Source: Candidatus Fermentibacterales bacterium (GTDB lineage: Bacteria > Fermentibacterota > Fermentibacteria > Fermentibacterales > JAFGKQ01). Taken from it: a DNA stretch of 9,884 bases. A model generated the notes under the pieces. That model saw only the letters and a list, made by a program, of their open reading frames with translations. It searched no databases and was not told the origin of the DNA. The DNA lies in the NCBI GenBank assembly GCA_016928495.1, contig JAFGKQ010000154.1, positions 1 through 9,884 of the forward strand. Direction: 5' to 3'. Shown here one piece after another: positions 485 to 9,849 of this stretch (position 1 is the stretch's first letter; the number at the start of each line of letters is the position of its first letter). A program made the position numbers and the translations under genes.

Positions 485-3046
485 ATGTCGTCCTCACGGA
501 AGTTGCCGGTCCTGTGCGTGTTCCTGTCGCTTGTTTGCCTGGGCGTCCTGCCGATGCTTGCGCTTGCAGAACCCACATTGTCGCCCGCGGCGGTTCCAAA
601 TAGGGCAAACGCCCCGTCCTTCCAGCCCGTCCTTCCCCTTACTTTCCCGAGTTCGTTCGACCTGCGGGACGTGGGCGGCAAGGACTACGTGACATCCGTG
701 AAAAGCCAGTCCGGCGGCACCTGCTGGACGCACGGGGCTATGGCGGCCATGGAGGGCAATCTCCTCATGACCGGCAACTGGAGCCTGGCCGGGGAGACCG
801 GGGAGCCCAACCTGGCCGAGTACCACCTTGACTGGTGGAACGGGTTCAACAACTTCTACAACGGCGACCTCGAGCCTCCCTACGGCGGCCTCACGCCTCA
901 CGAGGGCGGCGACTACATGGTCGCTTCCGCCTACTTCACGCGGGGCGAAGGGGCGGTAAGGGACATCGACGGCCAGTCCTACTCCACCCCGCCGGAGCAA
1001 TACCTCGATTCCTATCACATCTACTTCCCGCGCGAGATCGAGTGGTTCGTGGCGGAGCCCGACCTGTCGAATATCGATACCATCAAGTACATCATCATGG
1101 AGCACGGCGTGATGGGCACGTGCATGTGCTACAGCAGCTCCTACATCCAGAACTACATACACTACCAGCCCCCCAGCAGCCCCGACCTGCCGAACCATGC
1201 GATCGCCATAGTCGGCTGGAACGACACCCTCACCACTCAGGCGCCCCTGCCCGGCGCATGGCTCTGCAAGAACAGCTGGGGCTCCGGCTGGGGCTACGGC
1301 GGCTTCTTCTGGATCTCCTACTACGACAAGTACTCCTGCCAGGAGCCCTGGATGGGCGCCGTCTCGCATCAGGACGTCGTTCTCAGGGACTATGACTTCA
1401 TCTACCACCACGACTACCACGGCTGGCGCGACACGAAGACCGACTGCTCCGAGGCCTTCAACGCATTCACTGCCGAGGAGGACTTCCTGCTGAGGTCAGT
1501 GAGCTTCTTCACCGCGGCGGACAACGTGGGCTGCAGCATCGCCGTCTACGACGACTTCTCGTCGGGTCAGCTCCAGAACTGCCTCTGGAGCGGCGGAGGC
1601 CCGCGCGACTTCCGCGGCTTCGTGACGGTGGACCTCAACACACCGCTCGAGATAGAGGAGGGCGACGACTTCTACGTCTACCTGCAGCTGTCGGACGGCG
1701 GCCAGCCCTACGACAGGACATCGGACGTGCCGGTGCTCCTGGGCGCGAGCTACAGGGTCATAGTGGAGTCTTCCGCCTCTCCCGGAGAGAGCTACTACCG
1801 GGACGGCTCCACCTGGCTGGACCTCTACGACTGGCAGGGCAATCCCTATCCCGGCACCGGCAATTTCTGCATCAAGGCGCTCGGAGACCAGGCAGGGCTA
1901 CGCGTCACCCCCGGCACGCCCTTCCAGTCTTCGGGACCGCAGGGAGGCCCCTTCACCCCTTCCAGCCAGGTCTACAGCCTCCAGAACAAGGGCGCGGCCT
2001 CGATAGACTACGAGGTGACGATGGACCCGCAGGTGTCGTGGCTCGACCTCTCGGGGAACCTGGCCGGATCCCTGGCCCCCTATGGGGACCCCGAGGAGAT
2101 AATGGCGCAGATCAACTCCGCCGCGACGTCCCTTCCCGAGGGCGTGTACACGACCACGATCGAGTTCACGAACCTGACGACCCACACGGGCGACACGACG
2201 AGGGACGTGGCGCTGGTCATCGGTAGCCCGACCCTTCAGTACTACTGGCCGCTGGACGACGACCCCGGCTGGACCACCGAGGACCAGTGGGCCTGGGGCC
2301 AGCCCCAGGGCGGCGGAGGAGCTCACGGCTACCCCGATCCCACATCGGGCCACACCAACAGCTACGTCTACGGCTACAACCTGGCCGGGGACTACCCCAA
2401 CAACCTGCCGGAGAGGCACCTCACCAGCGAGGTGATCAACTGCTGCGGCCTCTACAACGTGCAGCTCAGGTTCTGGAGATGGCTGGGAGTGGAGCAGCCC
2501 TCCTACGACCATGCCTACGTCCGGGTCAGCAACGACGGCCAGACCTGGACGACCGTCTGGGCGAACGAGTCGGAGATTGCCGACAACGGGTGGGTCCAGT
2601 GCACCTGCGACATCTCTGACGTGGCGGACAACCAGTACGAGGTGCAACTCCGCTGGACCATGGGCACCACGGACGGCGGCTGGACTTACTGCGGCTGGAA
2701 CATCGACGACATCGAGATCTGGGGCACGGGCGAGACGGGAATCGGAGAAGGCGGGACGACTCCGGAAGCGCTGATCGTCTCCCCGGCGGTCCCGAACCCG
2801 TTCAACGGCAGCACCAGCATTCGCTTCGCCACCCCATCGGCTGGCTGGGTCAGGGTTGCCGTCTACGATCTCTCGGGCCGACTGGTGAGGACTCTGCAGG
2901 AGGGCTTCCAGCCCGCCGGTCAGCACTCCCTGCTCTGGAACGGAAGGGATGACTCGTCCCGGTCCGTACCGGCAGGTGTATACTTCGCGGTCGTGGAGTC
3001 CGGGGCGGGCGCCACGGGCACCCAGAAGCTGGTGCTGGTGAGGTAG
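485..3046 (+). CDS. Secreted papain-family (C1) cysteine protease with lectin-like, Ig-like, jelly-roll and sorting domains
   Basis: An exported protease of 853 residues. The signal peptide spans residues 1-28, with predicted cleavage after ALA. The catalytic domain follows after a very short pro-region and begins at the FDLRD motif near residue 58. Papain-type residues are visible: Gln75, Cys80 (SGGTCW), His238 (NHAIAIVGW) and Asn263 (KNSWGSGWGYGG). Residues about 315-470 look like the lectin-like domain that often follows this C1 subfamily. Residues about 471-582 form a BACON-like Ig domain with a GPQGGPFTPSS motif. Residues about 583-750 resemble a MAM-like jelly roll (WNIDDIEIWG at its end). 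Residues about 760-853 are a FlgD-Ig/type IX-like sorting domain (PNPFNGSTSIRF, VYDLSGRLVRTL, VPAGVYF, ending KLVLVR). The protein is probably a surface or released protease acting on polypeptide nutrients. The start has GGAGGTG 8 nt upstream. The catalytic loop is one residue shorter than papain's and lacks its disulfide Cys. Substrate is unknown. Confidence 0.9.
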   Translation: MSSSRKLPVLCVFLSLVCLGVLPMLALAEPTLSPAAVPNRANAPSFQPVLPLTFPSSFDLRDVGGKDYVTSVKSQSGGTCWTHGAMAAMEGNLLMTGNWSLAGETGEPNLAEYHLDWWNGFNNFYNGDLEPPYGGLTPHEGGDYMVASAYFTRGEGAVRDIDGQSYSTPPEQYLDSYHIYFPREIEWFVAEPDLSNIDTIKYIIMEHGVMGTCMCYSSSYIQNYIHYQPPSSPDLPNHAIAIVGWNDTLTTQAPLPGAWLCKNSWGSGWGYGGFFWISYYDKYSCQEPWMGAVSHQDVVLRDYDFIYHHDYHGWRDTKTDCSEAFNAFTAEEDFLLRSVSFFTAADNVGCSIAVYDDFSSGQLQNCLWSGGGPRDFRGFVTVDLNTPLEIEEGDDFYVYLQLSDGGQPYDRTSDVPVLLGASYRVIVESSASPGESYYRDGSTWLDLYDWQGNPYPGTGNFCIKALGDQAGLRVTPGTPFQSSGPQGGPFTPSSQVYSLQNKGAASIDYEVTMDPQVSWLDLSGNLAGSLAPYGDPEEIMAQINSAATSLPEGVYTTTIEFTNLTTHTGDTTRDVALVIGSPTLQYYWPLDDDPGWTTEDQWAWGQPQGGGGAHGYPDPTSGHTNSYVYGYNLAGDYPNNLPERHLTSEVINCCGLYNVQLRFWRWLGVEQPSYDHAYVRVSNDGQTWTTVWANESEIADNGWVQCTCDISDVADNQYEVQLRWTMGTTDGGWTYCGWNIDDIEIWGTGETGIGEGGTTPEALIVSPAVPNPFNGSTSIRFATPSAGWVRVAVYDLSGRLVRTLQEGFQPAGQHSLLWNGRDDSSRSVPAGVYFAVVESGAGATGTQKLVLVR

Positions 3047-4452: not shown

Positions 4453-5916
4453 CTAATAGCCCGGCTCCGCCCGTCTGGCGGCAACGAGATCGCGCCCCAA
4501 CGGCTCGATGTAGATCGCGAGCTCGGTCTGTCCCAGCCCGGTGTACCATCCTGTCAGGAGGTAGAAGGCCCGGATCGCTTCGTTCTCGATGGCCCTTCCC
4601 TCGACTGCATCCTCCAGGCAGGCCAGGAGCTCGAGGTAGAGCCGTTCCCGTGCCGGGTAGCCGTCATACCGCATCAGGTCCTGCTCGTCCCATCGAACCT
4701 TCTCGGTGAAGAGCGGCAGGAACTCCATGTAGCCAGCGTCTTCGGCAAGCCGCCGCGCTTCCTCGAATCTGCCCAGCCAGGCCTCGAGCATACGTATGCG
4801 CCCGGCACCGGGCTCCGGCAGGGCGGAGGCGGGAGTCGCGTCCTCGGCGCGGCGAAGCAGCCCGTCGGTCCATGGATAGGGGATCTCGAGCCCGAGGTCC
4901 GAGTAGATGGCGTTGCAGCAGCACATCAGGACCTGGTCCGGACGTATGGGATCCCAGATGTCCTCCGCGAGCAGACCCATGATGGAGGCGTAGACCGAGC
5001 CTTCCTCCCAGGTCAGGTTCGACAGTCCGGACGCCAGGTCCATCATGTCCGTCAGGTAGTAGATCCCCTCTGTCCAGTAGCGGTAGCGGGCGCTGATCTC
5101 CACGTCGCTTGTCGGCTCCAGAGCGGTGAAAGCCCACTCCAGCGTATCGCCTCTGCTGCTAGCCCCGCTGCTCACGTCCCAGTAGCAGATCAGGCTGTCG
5201 CTGTACTGCTGGCGTGGGATGCCCTCCGGGACGATCACCCGCACCAGGCCCCTCCCGATGGGGCCCGCCCAGCCGGCGCCCGAGGTCATCACGTACCTGA
5301 GGCTGGAGGATGCCTGGTCGAGACCCGCGAAGAAGTCCCAGCCGGTGACGTACGAGTTCTCGAGCCTCCTCACCTGACCAGGCTCGAAGCTCATGGACCA
5401 GGTGGCCATGACGGGGTACCAGAGAAAGCCCTCCCCTGCTCTCCTGTCGAGCTTCCTGAAGGAGACGGGAACAGGTTCGCCATCGACGGCCGCCCGGAAG
5501 GAGAGCACGTCCGGGATGAGAGCCGAGCCGTCGGAGCCGGCCACCCAGGGGTCATCGGACTCCTCCGCGGACTGCTCCAGTGTGGCTATCAGCCACTTGT
5601 CGTCCATGGCTGTGTAAGCGCTGCCGAACTTGGCGTCGAAGGGGAAGCCCACAGAGATGGTCCGGGGCTCGCCCGAAGTGTTCTCGAGCAGGAAGAGACA
5701 CTCCACCCTCATCAGTGGATTCCACTCGTCCGTCTGCCCGGCAGGCACGATGAGAACGGTCTCGGCGATCATTGCGATGTCCTCCGACTGGACGGGAGCT
5801 ACGGTCCGTCCATCGGGGTACTCGTAGATCTCGACCGAGTCTGTCGCGGCAGGCGCAGCGTGGAGCACCGCGCAGAGCATCGCACACGGAACCGCAAGGG
5901 AACGAGCGTTTCTCAT
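4453..5916 (-). CDS. Exported protein with DUF4424-like beta domain and helical C-terminus
   Basis: A protein of 487 residues with a signal peptide (about residues 1-25, LAVPCAMLCAVLHAAPAA). The mature N-terminal half, to about residue 280, is rich in beta strands. It carries a pattern typical of DUF4424-like secreted domains: an ISVGFPFDAKFG segment, an AAVDGEPVPV segment, then WSMSFEPGQVRRLENSYVTGW and a GAGWAGPIGRG segment. The C-terminal part (about 285-487) looks helical, holds a CCC triplet at residues 332-334 and has no recognised family. I prefer ATG at 5916: GGAGAG (5922-5927) lies just upstream of it, while an in-frame GTG at 5922 would overlap that ribosome-binding site. The biochemical role is unknown. 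It is the upstream member of a minus-strand pair with pepC, 55 nt apart. No catalytic motif was seen. Confidence 0.8.
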   Translation of the reverse strand: MRNARSLAVPCAMLCAVLHAAPAATDSVEIYEYPDGRTVAPVQSEDIAMIAETVLIVPAGQTDEWNPLMRVECLFLLENTSGEPRTISVGFPFDAKFGSAYTAMDDKWLIATLEQSAEESDDPWVAGSDGSALIPDVLSFRAAVDGEPVPVSFRKLDRRAGEGFLWYPVMATWSMSFEPGQVRRLENSYVTGWDFFAGLDQASSSLRYVMTSGAGWAGPIGRGLVRVIVPEGIPRQQYSDSLICYWDVSSGASSRGDTLEWAFTALEPTSDVEISARYRYWTEGIYYLTDMMDLASGLSNLTWEEGSVYASIMGLLAEDIWDPIRPDQVLMCCCNAIYSDLGLEIPYPWTDGLLRRAEDATPASALPEPGAGRIRMLEAWLGRFEEARRLAEDAGYMEFLPLFTEKVRWDEQDLMRYDGYPARERLYLELLACLEDAVEGRAIENEAIRAFYLLTGWYTGLGQTELAIYIEPLGRDLVAARRAEPGY

Positions 5917-5921
5917 CGCCA

Positions 5922-5927
5922 CTCTCC
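5922..5927 (-). promoter_or_regulatory. Ribosome-binding site deciding ATG over GTG start
   Basis: GGAGAG sits 5 nt before the ATG at 5916-5914 (7 nt if counted from GGAG). It overlaps the alternative in-frame GTG at 5922-5920, which therefore cannot use it. This favours the product two residues shorter. Confidence 0.6.
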
Positions 5928-6470: not shown

Positions 6471-6541
6471 ATCGCGGCCGTAGGGTAGGACGAGAGGATC
6501 ACCTGCCGGAACGGACGACCGCATCGCATTCCGCATTGCAA

Positions 6542-6548
6542 GGGAGGG
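6542..6548 (+). promoter_or_regulatory. Strong Shine-Dalgarno before a CTG codon
   Basis: GGGAGGG ends 3 nt before CTG at 6552 (4 nt if aligned as GGGAGG). No ATG, GTG or TTG lies in frame between the TAG at 6486 and the ATG at 6597. The position of this site is the main sequence argument for translation starting at or next to 6552. Confidence 0.45.
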
Positions 6549-6551
6549 CCC

Positions 6552-7712
6552 CTGACGGACGAGAGGCTGCAGGATCTCAGACGAGAGCTCCACGGGATGG
6601 CGGAGCCGTCCAACCAGGAGGAAGCCACGGCATCCTTTCTCGAGGCCTTCCTTCGAGACACGCATCCCGACAGCCTCGTGACTGGACTCGGAGGTTACGG
6701 ACTTGCCGCGGTGTACGACTCCGGCAGGGCGGGGGTCTCCACGCTGCTCAGATGCGAGCTCGACGCCCTGCCCATGCCCGAGACCCTGGCTGGCCCTGAA
6801 GGACCGGTGACGAGAGGCTGCTCCCACCGCTGCGGCCACGACGGCCACATGGCCATGATGTGCGGAGCCGCCCTGGACCTCTCCACGAGTCGGCCACCCT
6901 CCGGACGGGTAACGCTCCTGTTCCAGCCGGCCGAGGAGACCGGGGAGGGAGCAGCCAGGGTCCTGGCGGAAGCCTTCTTCAGAGACTCCTGTTTCGACTA
7001 CGCGATCGCCCTCCACAACCTGCCGGGCTTCACCATGGGCAGCGTGATCCTGGGTGAGGGCCGTTTTGCCGCGGCATCCGAGGGCCTGATAGCCAGACTC
7101 AGCGGCGACTCCTCCCATGCGGCAGAGCCAGAGAAGGGGCGCAGCCCGGGGAAGGTCTTCCCGTACATCATCTCGGCGCTCTCGGAGGTCCCGCAGCACT
7201 CCGCAGGCCTGCAGGACTCCGCGAAGGTGACGGTGATCCATGCCAGGCTCGGTGAGGTCGCCTTCGGCACCTCGCCCGGCAAGGCGGTGATAATGGCCAC
7301 CCTCAGAGCCTTCGACGAGAAGGTCATGAACGCACTTCGGACCGAGTGCGAGAGCGTGTGCCGGCGGCTGTCCTCAGCCTTCGGGATCGATTGCGAGATC
7401 TCGCGCACCCAGAGCTTCCCGGCCACGGCCAACGATCCGGCGGCGGTGGAAGTCGTGCGGCGAGCGGCTCTGAGCCTGGGCCTGGGAATCCACGAGGTTC
7501 GAAGACCCTTCCCGTGGTCGGAGGACTTCGGGCACTTCACGAGCGTGTTCCGGGGTGCGCTGGTAGGCCTGGGGAGCGGGCTCGAGCAGCCGCCTCTCCA
7601 TCATCCCGAATACGTGTTCCCGGACGAGCTGCTCGAAACCGGAAGGACGCTGATCACCAGCATTGCAGGCGCCCTGGCCGATGCCGGGGAGTCCGGAGAG
7701 GACCTCTCCTGA
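6552..7712 (+). CDS. M20D-family metallo-amidohydrolase (N-acyl amino acid / dipeptide hydrolase)
   Basis: A zinc amidohydrolase of the M20D (hippurate hydrolase/AbgB/N-acetyl-diaminopimelate deacetylase) type, without a signal peptide, so cytoplasmic. Numbering from 6552, I see the metal and catalytic residues Cys94, His96 and His99 (HRCGHDGHMAMM), Glu128-Glu129 (FQPAEETGEGA), His155 (LHNLPGFTMG) and His350 (LHHPEYVF), plus the EDFGHF motif. The dimerisation-lid segment GDSSHAAEPEKG is also present. The usual first Asp of the family's D-x-D-A-L-P motif is Glu here (CELDALP). The family N-terminus L-x-x-L-R-R-x-L-H is encoded upstream of the first ATG (6597). I therefore place the start at CTG 6552, giving 386 residues, the normal family length. 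The conservative alternative is ATG 6597 (371 residues). It overlaps the racemase gene by 1 nt (TGATG). The exact substrate is unknown; deacylation of an N-acyl amino acid or cleavage of a cell-wall-derived peptide fits the operon. Confidence 0.87.
   Translation: MTDERLQDLRRELHGMAEPSNQEEATASFLEAFLRDTHPDSLVTGLGGYGLAAVYDSGRAGVSTLLRCELDALPMPETLAGPEGPVTRGCSHRCGHDGHMAMMCGAALDLSTSRPPSGRVTLLFQPAEETGEGAARVLAEAFFRDSCFDYAIALHNLPGFTMGSVILGEGRFAAASEGLIARLSGDSSHAAEPEKGRSPGKVFPYIISALSEVPQHSAGLQDSAKVTVIHARLGEVAFGTSPGKAVIMATLRAFDEKVMNALRTECESVCRRLSSAFGIDCEISRTQSFPATANDPAAVEVVRRAALSLGLGIHEVRRPFPWSEDFGHFTSVFRGALVGLGSGLEQPPLHHPEYVFPDELLETGRTLITSIAGALADAGESGEDLS
7695..7709 (+). promoter_or_regulatory. Racemase ribosome-binding site inside a small palindrome
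   Basis: GGAGAGG, A, CCTCTCC is an odd-length palindrome that contains the only Shine-Dalgarno sequence of the racemase gene, 10 nt before its ATG. A five-pair stem (GGAGA with TCTCC) could hide it. Ribosomes ending at the overlapping TGA at 7710-7712 would open it, which fits translational coupling. The structure is predicted by eye only. Confidence 0.4.
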
Positions 7713-8875
7713 TGCAGGGACCCGCGAGGATCGAGCTCAGCAGGAAGGCCTTGAAGAGCAACCTCAGGTTCCTGAGGAAGGAGATAGGCCCCTCACCACG
7801 CATCTCCCTCGTGGTCAAGGGGAATGCCTACGGGCACGGCATAGAGTCCTTCGTTCCGCTGGCACAGGAATGCGGTGCGGACCACTTCTCGGTCTTCAGC
7901 TCCGAGGAGGCCGGAAGGGTGACGAAGGCCTCTGCCAGGCCCTGCGACCTGATGGTCATGGGGTACGTCGATCCGGAAGCCCTGGACTGGATGCTGGCCA
8001 CCGGGATTTCCTTCTACGTCTTCGAGCTGGACCGCCTTCGAGCGGCGCTCTGCTCCGCAAGGAGAACGGGCAGGCCGGCCCGTGTTCATCTCCAGCTCGA
8101 GACCGGCATGAACAGGCTGGGCCTGGACGCGGATCAGCTCAGGGCTGCGGTGGAGCTGATCGGCCGGAACAGGGAGCACCTCTCCGTAGAGGGGGTCTGC
8201 ACCCACTTCGCGGGCGCCGAAAGCGTCAGCAACTACCTCAGGATCCGGAACCAGATCTCGGTTTTCGAGGAGAGATGCAGGTGGCTCGACGAGGCAGGCG
8301 TGGACTACGGGATGAGGCACACCGCCTGCTCCGCCGCCGCCCTTGCCTATCCCGAGACCATCATGGACATGGTGCGCTTCGGGATAGTCGCCTACGGGTT
8401 CTGGCCCACAAGGGAGACCAGGATACGCTACCTCCTGGAGAAGGAGCGGGGGGGCAGGCCCCACAAGGACCCTCTGCGGCGGGTGATGACCCTGAAGAGC
8501 AGCATCATGAGCATCAAGAACGTCGTTCCCGGCGACTTCGTCGGATACGGAATCTCCTACCAGGCGGCGGGCGAGAGGAGGATAGCTTCCATTCCGGTCG
8601 GCTACTCCCTGGGCCTGGCCAGGAGCCTGAGCAATCTCGGGCACGTCCTCGTGCATGGATGCCGGGCCCCCATAGCGGGACTGGTCAACATGTCCATGGC
8701 CCTCGTGGACGTTACCCACCTGAAGGACGTGAACATCGGAGATGAGGTCGTCATCATCGGCAGGCAGGGAAGGTCGAGCATCTCCGTCTCTTCCTTCTCG
8801 GACATGACCGGCAGGCTGAACTACGAGGTCCTTGTCCGGCTTCCGGAGCGCATTCCCAGAGCAGTGGTCGAGTGA
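7712..8875 (+). CDS. alr: Alanine racemase-fold PLP enzyme
   Basis: A 387-residue fold-type III PLP racemase; the family interconverts L- and D-alanine for cell-wall synthesis or D-Ala catabolism. The PLP lysine is Lys36 (VVKGNAYGHG), the partner tyrosine is Tyr279 (FVGYGISY), and Arg135 lies in ETGMNRLG. Met327 matches the substrate-side Met. Three positions differ from the textbook enzyme: the carbamylated Lys of the K-x-D-T-G-M motif is Gln128, the G-Y-x-D-G motif reads GYSLG, and C-M-D reads NMS. These point to a divergent subfamily, possibly with another or broader substrate. The start overlaps the stop of the amidohydrolase gene (TGATG), and the 3' end overlaps the dipeptidase gene by 4 nt, so the three are almost certainly one operon. 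An internal ORF extension upstream was rejected because homology begins at this ATG. Confidence 0.9.
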   Translation: MQGPARIELSRKALKSNLRFLRKEIGPSPRISLVVKGNAYGHGIESFVPLAQECGADHFSVFSSEEAGRVTKASARPCDLMVMGYVDPEALDWMLATGISFYVFELDRLRAALCSARRTGRPARVHLQLETGMNRLGLDADQLRAAVELIGRNREHLSVEGVCTHFAGAESVSNYLRIRNQISVFEERCRWLDEAGVDYGMRHTACSAAALAYPETIMDMVRFGIVAYGFWPTRETRIRYLLEKERGGRPHKDPLRRVMTLKSSIMSIKNVVPGDFVGYGISYQAAGERRIASIPVGYSLGLARSLSNLGHVLVHGCRAPIAGLVNMSMALVDVTHLKDVNIGDEVVIIGRQGRSSISVSSFSDMTGRLNYEVLVRLPERIPRAVVE

Positions 8876-9609
8876 GGGAGGATTCCGGGGCCAGGCGCTA
8901 CTGGGGAAGCGTAATGGAGGAGGCCTTCCGGTTCCGCCAGCGGGCACTGGAGCATCCGGTCGAGGAATGCGGGGAGCCCCTGGTCGACCTGCCCACCGCC
9001 TGCGAGGAAGCGGGGGTGCATGTCAGTTTCTCCGATGCTCCGTTCCCCGGGGGGCACTTCAGGATCTTCGCGCTGCGTCAGGGTCTCGTGGAGGCGTTTC
9101 TGTCGATAGCCCGGGACCTCAACAGCATGGACCTGGTCCTCAGGCTCGAGGACTGCTTCAGGACCCCGGCAATGCAGAAAGCGCTGGCTTCCGCGCCGGG
9201 GATTCCGGAGCGGGTTGCCGAGCTTGTGCGATGGGAGACCGGGCTTGATGCACCCCCGGACGACGTTCTGGAGAAGAGACTCAGCGTATTGGTCGCCACT
9301 CACGTCAGGACCGCCGGGCACATGTCGGGTTCGGCCCTGGACGTCACGGTCCTGAGAATGCCGGACGGCAAGGAGGTCGACAGAGGCGGCAGCTATCTGG
9401 ACCTGTCCGTGATCACGCCCATGGACTCGCCATTCATCGGGCCGGATGCCGTCCGCAACAGGCGGGTCATCTCAGGTGTGCTCGCCAGTCGGGGCTTCCC
9501 GGCCTACCCCTGGGAGTTCTGGCACTACAGCTCCGGGGACGTGGTTGCAGAACTTGCCTCCGGATCGGGACAGCCTGCCCGCTACGGGCCTATCGCCCGC
9601 GACTCCTAG
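8872..9609 (+). CDS. D-alanyl-D-alanine dipeptidase-like protein (VanX/DdpX, peptidase M15D)
   Basis: A 245-residue zinc peptidase with no signal peptide, so cytoplasmic. Family members split D-Ala-D-Ala into two D-Ala. The zinc ligands are visible as His150 and Asp157 (GHMSGSALD, the H-x(2)-G-x-A-x-D motif) and His218. Catalytic Glu215 lies three residues before His218 in EFWHYSSGD (E-W-W-H in VanX). Arg97 (FRTPAMQ) matches the transition-state Arg of the R-P-x-x-Q region. The motif is less strict than VanX (AGH in place of SxH, F in place of the first W). The gene is longer than VanX (about 200 residues), with extra N-terminal sequence and an insert before His150. The GTG start overlaps the racemase stop (GTGA), with no good ribosome-binding site, which suggests coupled re-initiation. 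ATG at 8914 (residue 15) is the alternative. No vanH or vanA neighbour is present, so I favour D-Ala salvage over glycopeptide resistance. Confidence 0.87.
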   Translation: MREDSGARRYWGSVMEEAFRFRQRALEHPVEECGEPLVDLPTACEEAGVHVSFSDAPFPGGHFRIFALRQGLVEAFLSIARDLNSMDLVLRLEDCFRTPAMQKALASAPGIPERVAELVRWETGLDAPPDDVLEKRLSVLVATHVRTAGHMSGSALDVTVLRMPDGKEVDRGGSYLDLSVITPMDSPFIGPDAVRNRRVISGVLASRGFPAYPWEFWHYSSGDVVAELASGSGQPARYGPIARDS

Positions 9610-9827
9610 CGCATCACCACGAAGGCCCTGGTCTGGGAGATATCCCCCGCCACCAGCCTGCACAGGTACACGCCGCTGCACATGCTCGAGACGTCTACCG
9701 CGAGATCTCCGGCACCGTTCCAGAGACAGTCGGTCATGTCCATGAGCAGCCTCCCGTCGAGACCGTAGATGGAGAGGCTGGGGACCAACTGCCCGGGTGA
9801 CCTGCCCCCGGTTTTTCGGTCCAGGTT
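9606..9827 (-). pseudogene. C-terminal fragment of a secreted protein (type IX/FlgD-like sorting domain)
   Basis: The last 60 or so residues of this frame follow the sorting-domain pattern: PSLSIYGLDGRLLMDM, then an Asp-rich turn, CSGVYLCRLVAGD, and an ending TRAFVVMR. Compare the FlgD-like end of the large C1 protease in this window. The frame is closed upstream by an in-frame TAG at 9830-9828. The only start is a TTG at 9788 with no ribosome-binding site. No PNPF-type opening or export signal precedes it. The piece is therefore probably the tail of a larger exported protein broken by a frameshift, nonsense change or deletion. A sequencing error in the C-run at 9805-9809 is an alternative. 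It overlaps the end of the dipeptidase gene by 4 nt at a shared CTAG. Confidence 0.55.
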
Positions 9828-9849
9828 CTATGTTAGTAGTCGGACCGAA
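9815..9849. repeat. Perfect 8-bp inverted repeat with 19-nt spacer
   Basis: TTCGGTCC (9815-9822) and GGACCGAA (9842-9849) form an exact dyad. The T-run at 9812-9816 lies on the 5' side for the plus strand, so it cannot serve as a plus-strand terminator tail; on the minus strand the hairpin is followed by A residues. The spacing and the more AT-rich centre would fit an operator over a promoter. It lies just before a possible plus-strand start at 9867. Confidence 0.45.

Follow-up and report, generated by a model that had tools for sequence, protein, structure and literature searches.

Described systems and comparison with the locus

The N-succinylamino acid racemase pathway of Geobacillus carries out a D-to-L conversion, in which the racemase works together with a GNAT and an M20 desuccinylase. 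VanXY and VanT occur together in some van clusters. In E. coli, the ddpXABCDF operon for D-Ala-D-Ala utilisation encodes the DdpX dipeptidase and a transporter (PMC8743547). No description of an operon combining M20D, Alr and VanX genes was found in the literature searched.

The window (the whole stretch of 9,884 nucleotides analysed) corresponds to contig C247 of a 2.3 Mb MAG that is 81% complete, and was compared with 41 other genomes of the same order (42 in total). It shares with the E. coli operon a VanX-type zinc dipeptidase encoded in an operon and a presumed use of D-Ala peptides; however, it has no linked dipeptide ABC transporter of the ddp type, and shows a racemase and an M20D enzyme instead. 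The likeness to the Geobacillus pathway lies in a racemase accompanied by an M20 hydrolase, with a GNAT in some relatives, but the N-succinylamino acid racemase belongs to the enolase superfamily and acts on N-acyl substrates, whereas the window racemase, named here Alr2, is of PLP type and requires a free amine.

Organization of the gene cluster

Three open reading frames run on the forward strand at 6552-7712, 7712-8875 and 8872-9609, and their stop and start codons bear out the two overlaps reported in the initial annotation: the TGA of the M20D gene (7710-7712) shares 1 nt with the ATG of alr2 at 7712, and the TGA of alr2 (8873-8875) overlaps by 4 nt the GTG of the M15D gene at 8872. The features are:

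6540..6548, + strand: AAGGGAGGG, Shine-Dalgarno-like, directly 5' of the CTG start (read from the sequence)
6552..7712, + strand: M20D amidohydrolase/aminoacylase-carboxypeptidase, CTG start (Pfam and TIGR profiles, conserved ligand residues)
7712..8875, + strand: Alr2, second diverged alanine-racemase paralogue (profiles, residue alignment)
8872..9609, + strand: member of a VanX-type M15D dipeptidase subfamily, short C terminus (profiles, alignment, predicted fold)

The CTG at 6552 is the best start of the M20D gene, since the Shine-Dalgarno-like sequence precedes it and the first in-frame ATG, at 6597, would drop the Leu-His motif L13-H14, which is conserved across 31 aligned sequences of the order. 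GC content by codon position is coding-like in the three genes. The family assignments proposed earlier (M20D, Alr and VanX-like) agree with the curated cut-offs, and the active sites are intact, with all the catalytic and metal residues checked present in the three enzymes. The genes likely form one transcription unit, as had been proposed; no match to a sigma-70 promoter pattern and no Rfam match to an RNA element were found.

The best explanation of the locus, to which we give a probability of about 55%, is a co-transcribed trio of enzymes, soluble and probably located in the cytoplasm, for the salvage of N-acyl amino acids and/or of peptides containing D-amino acids. The M15D zinc amino-dipeptidase, of VanX type, would cut short dipeptides of the D,D- or X-D kind (D-Ala-D-Ala, for example), and the M20D metal amidohydrolase would strip an acyl group or a C-terminal residue off other N-blocked substrates. 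The freed small D-amino acid would then be converted to its L form for catabolism by the PLP racemase Alr2. In its best reading, M20D and Alr2 are the core of the module and the dipeptidase is accessory; the substrates, the direction of flux and the peptide source are inferred. The gene overlaps count for this salvage module. If it is true, the locus would offer three things: from an uncultured lineage, a module for recycling D-amino acids that can be tested; a natural alanine racemase whose specificity may have shifted and whose residue changes are defined; and a VanX-like subfamily found across phyla. Every enzyme could be assayed singly in soluble form.

In agreement with the initial annotation, the window shows no recognisable gene for a ligase, VanH, a regulator or a transporter; the genome encodes one good Ddl elsewhere, on contig C242. 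A van-like antibiotic-resistance cassette, which would remove D-Ala-D-Ala to alter cell-wall precursors, is thus highly improbable: a VanX-type enzyme and a racemase do share one operon, but ligase, dehydrogenase and two-component system are absent from the window, and the racemase, devoid of a membrane domain, scores below what is required of VanT (235 bits, cut-off 460).

The M20D amidohydrolase

The M20D protein (P0001) matches the M20 Pfam family with an E value of 4.8e-24 and scores 190.8 bits with TIGR01891 (cut-off 153.75), which places it in M20D. The ligand residues of the CGHDxH/EE/H/H pattern are C94, H96, E128/E129, H155 and H350, and these positions are conserved in at least 30 of the 31 aligned sequences of the order. 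The metal-ligand pattern is shared with the M20D enzymes YxeP (1ysj) and ILL2 (1xmb), with similarity over most of the length; the window enzyme differs from them in having an Alr paralogue as partner.

Orthologues were found in 31 of the 42 genomes, one in each except for a split copy in G041, and M20D is therefore an old, order-wide gene. Its neighbours, assigned by reading the sequences, are often GlnRS and a DegP-like protease, or a methyltransferase. In 26 genomes it is present without a detected Alr2, therefore M20D has a function independent of Alr2, and this counts against the salvage module.

The diverged alanine racemase Alr2

Alr2 (P0002) contains the Ala_racemase_N and Ala_racemase_C Pfam domains and exceeds the equivalog cut-off of TIGR00492 (269.3 against 168 bits). 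It has the family, both domains, the catalytic Lys and Tyr and the gate tyrosines in common with biosynthetic Alr (TIGR00492) and catabolic DadX, but differs from them by replacements at K129, D286, R309 and C311 and by its linkage to M20D, and no dadA was recognised beside it. The window protein keeps the catalytic K36 (Lys39, PLP) and Y279 (Tyr265), as well as R135 (Arg136), R222 (Arg219) and Y371 (Tyr354), and shows Q128 for Lys129, L300 for Asp286, L324 for Arg309 and N326 for Cys311, the reference residues following Geobacillus numbering.

Relatives of Alr2, with 49-57% identity, are present in five of the 42 genomes (G000, which contains the window, G005, G012, G013 and G041), and only the N-terminal part of the fragmented G041 protein could be read in the residue comparison. 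They keep Lys39, Tyr265, the PLP residues Arg136, His166 and Arg219, and the gate residues Tyr284, Arg290 and Met312; the gate Tyr354 is also kept, except for Trp in G005. Across these proteins Lys129 is replaced by Gln or Glu, Asp286 by Leu or His, Arg309 by Leu or Val and Cys311 by Asn. Lys129, Asp286 and Arg309 are retained in almost every housekeeping or other-phylum Alr compared. In a tree with other-phylum Alrs added, Alr2 forms one clade with a long stem, sister to the housekeeping Alrs of the order (99/96 support). The racemase, named as Alr in the initial annotation, is not an ordinary Alr but a divergent paralogue in which residues of the PLP support and of the entryway are changed. 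The genome also encodes a housekeeping Alr on contig C245, which scores 304 bits where the window copy scores 268, so that, together with the Ddl, Alr2 is not needed for the supply of cell-wall D-Ala; this counts for the salvage module.

Lys129 supports the PLP arginine, Tyr354 and Tyr265 confine Alr to small substrates, and Arg309 is a conserved entryway residue of the middle layer (PMC3485190, PMC3245724). Lys129 and the middle-layer Arg309, which are conserved but not strictly defining for Alr, are both missing in the window protein. Because Lys129, often carbamylated, is absent from some true Alrs (PMC3245724), its loss alone neither proves a new specificity nor excludes alanine racemase activity; however, with the four residues replaced, alanine specificity cannot be assumed. 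Alr2 may not use alanine, given the missing Lys129 and Arg309, and this counts against the salvage module. As both gate tyrosines are kept, the most likely substrate would be D-Ala or D-Ser.

Two other assignments of Alr2 were rejected. With VanT serine racemase profiles it scores 234.9 bits (cut-off 460) and 157 bits (cut-off 900), and its 387 aa hold the two racemase domains only. The broad-specificity Lyr/Bar racemases (PMC3485190) are also without the carbamylated Lys129, but they need Asn after the PLP arginine and a residue other than Tyr at 354; the window protein has L136 and Y371 at these positions and is therefore not a Lyr/Bar enzyme.

The VanX-like M15D dipeptidase

The M15D protein (P0003) matches Peptidase_M15 with 43.5 bits (gathering threshold 27). 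Its curated NCBIfam scores are far under the equivalog cut-offs of VanX (38.4 against 320 bits) and DdpX (35.7 against 176 bits), therefore it was rejected as an equivalog of either and is called VanX-like, not VanX. H150, D157 and H218 align with the zinc ligands His116, Asp123 and His184 of VanX, E215 aligns with the base Glu181, and R97 was assigned as the equivalent of Arg71 from the ED-x-x-R motif; the five residues are invariant in 25 sequences. In the AlphaFold model (pLDDT 91) the nearest fold is VanX (PDB 1r44; Z 15.6, 180 residues, 3.2 A, 21% identity), followed by VanY (Z 9.5). The protein thus shares with VanX the five catalytic residues (Arg, His, Asp, Glu, His) and, by prediction, the fold, which counts for the salvage module, but it differs from VanX in belonging to a distinct subfamily with its own signature and in having no van cluster.

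Relatives with 40-50% identity were found at 23 loci outside the order, patchily distributed across several phyla; the record labels are Clostridia, Armatimonadetes, Chloroflexi, Phycisphaerae, Verrucomicrobia-type, Lentisphaerae and Proteobacteria, and several are uncultured MAGs. None of the 23 loci has Alr or M20D beside M15D, which counts against the salvage module, and the genomes carrying the subfamily outside the order show only an ordinary Alr (30-39% identity) and no Alr2. A TRAP DctM gene lies close to M15D in three of the 16 loci with readable neighbours, a hint of a link to uptake; no other neighbour recurs, and an S11 D-Ala carboxypeptidase and an M81 peptidase appear once each. 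The members of this cross-phylum subfamily (L010-L032) have about 245-290 aa and the signature YPWEFWHY, TPMxSPF, and fall outside the VanX and DdpX models. The subfamily is a candidate for a family model of its own, and to our knowledge it has no experimental member.

Within the order, M15D is present in two of the 42 genomes, the only close relative being that of G028 (54% identity), with a distant match in G005. The window protein ends about 35 residues earlier than most relatives, with a complete catalytic core, and this early end coincides with the 3' end of a convergent sorting-domain ORF.

A narrower version of the pathway, in which the VanX/DdpX-like enzyme cuts D-Ala-D-Ala from wall turnover or prey and the D-Ala is racemised to L-Ala, can be held tentatively; D-amino-acid salvage has two versions of similar likelihood, and this is one of them. 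The VanX catalytic residues and predicted fold, the score of Alr2 above the Alr equivalog cut-off, and the precedent of E. coli ddpXABCDF, with dipeptidase and transporter in one operon (PMC8743547), speak for it, and a route from D-Ala-D-Ala to L-Ala appears plausible from the sequences; however, the dipeptidase is far from the VanX and DdpX equivalogs, the locus is without a transporter partner, with no SBP_bac_5 found in the genome, and Alr2 has a changed active site.

Conservation of the gene order

Conserved adjacency in relatives, the absence of which the initial annotation had named as grounds against its pathway, was found for the pair and not for the triple. M20D-Alr2-M15D is present in no other of the 42 genomes searched, nor at the 23 M15D loci elsewhere, which counts against the salvage module. 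Alr2 adjoins M20D on the same strand in four of the five Alr2 genomes (G000, G005, G012 and G041), an arrangement whose chance probability is about 1e-13 by a rough estimate that ignores shared ancestry. The settings of the pair differ: in G012 it follows GlnRS, in G005 it comes after the gene of a C25-like secreted protein, in G041 it precedes a methyltransferase, and the window shows a further arrangement. That the pair persists in such varied surroundings argues for its maintenance by selection, and it is a conserved unit. In G013, Alr2 lies away from M20D and is divergent from a GNAT-Orr-like gene pair. In G041 (L095, L155) the M20D, Alr2 and Orr-like genes are all split by frameshifts, probably sequencing errors.

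The Alr2 and M20D trees both put the window near G005 and separate G012 from the lineage of G013 and G041, with several forks weakly supported; their agreement fits co-inheritance of the pair. Pair conservation and tree agreement count for the salvage module. In G028, genes for a GNAT and for an Orr-like racemase follow M15D; an amino-acid permease gene also lies within 9 kb, as does M20D, which is about 6 kb from M15D. The salvage pathway first proposed is thus partly supported, by the M20D-Alr2 conservation and by the M15D gene near M20D and an amino-acid racemase in G028, and not by the triple.

The M15D gene is a late, patchy addition to M20D-Alr2; it is plausible that it is a functional addition and not a conserved member of the unit. 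It is also possible, with a lower likelihood than the module of three enzymes, that the functional unit is M20D-Alr2 alone, acting on an N-acyl or peptide-bound non-alanine amino acid with a specificity-shifted Alr2, the VanX-like gene having been inserted recently and sharing only the transcript. The pair without adjacent M15D in G005, G012 and G041, the long stem of the Alr2 clade with its consistent changes at K129, D286, R309 and C311, and the patchiness of M15D over phyla and within the order are in its favour; but G028 also has M15D near M20D, M15D overlaps Alr2 translationally in the window, and the window Alr2 keeps the equivalents of Tyr265 and Tyr354, which limit Alr to small substrates. 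A further tentative proposal is that M20D-Alr2 is a so far undescribed module of two enzymes, in which the deacylase/carboxypeptidase frees a non-alanine D- or L-amino acid and a neofunctionalised Alr, without Lys129 and Arg309, inverts it, the uncharacterised cross-phylum M15D feeding it in some genomes.

Orr-like racemase and peptide import

An Orr-like racemase, which scores 293 bits with NF040742 and is under its cut-off of 480, was found in nine of the 42 genomes, including all five with Alr2 (hypergeometric p 1.5e-4, uncorrected for kinship); the count leaves out two weak matches (G024, G040) that fall inside ordinary Alr genes. The patchy distribution common to Alr2 and the Orr-like racemase supports a D-amino-acid role and does not point to a particular amino acid. 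The G028 cluster and the presence of this racemase in all the Alr2 genomes count for the salvage module. No ornithine-fermentation genes were recognised beside the Orr-like racemase in the gene calls inspected. The GNAT and Orr-like genes (L096, L097, L150-L154) overlap or lie side by side in the majority of these nine genomes, in several settings; no GNAT was called beside the Orr-like racemase in G000 or G041.

A search of the 81%-complete genome for two types of peptide importer, Opp/Dpp (SBP_bac_5) and OPT, gave no homologue of either. This counts against the salvage module and weakens a feeding scenario, leaving own turnover or an unknown carrier; the "peptide-feeding" and "prey or necromass" readings of the initial annotation are speculation.

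Neighbouring open reading frames

At 9606-9830 (- strand) lies a short convergent ORF with an in-frame stop ahead of it; it resembles the C terminus of a protein with a T9SS/FlgD-like sorting domain. As this ORF overlaps the truncated M15D gene, 3' end against 3' end, both may have been cut by an old recombination. The predicted secreted protein encoded at 4453-5922 (- strand), previously described as DUF4424-like, matches DUF4424 over just 21 residues and below the cut-off (E 0.0015). The ORF at 485-3046 (+ strand) encodes a secreted protease of the C1A papain family that also carries lectin-like and MAM-like domains and a sorting domain at its C terminus; C1A relatives are also found near M20D in G021 and G041 and near the Orr-like gene in G000 (contig C102) and G003.
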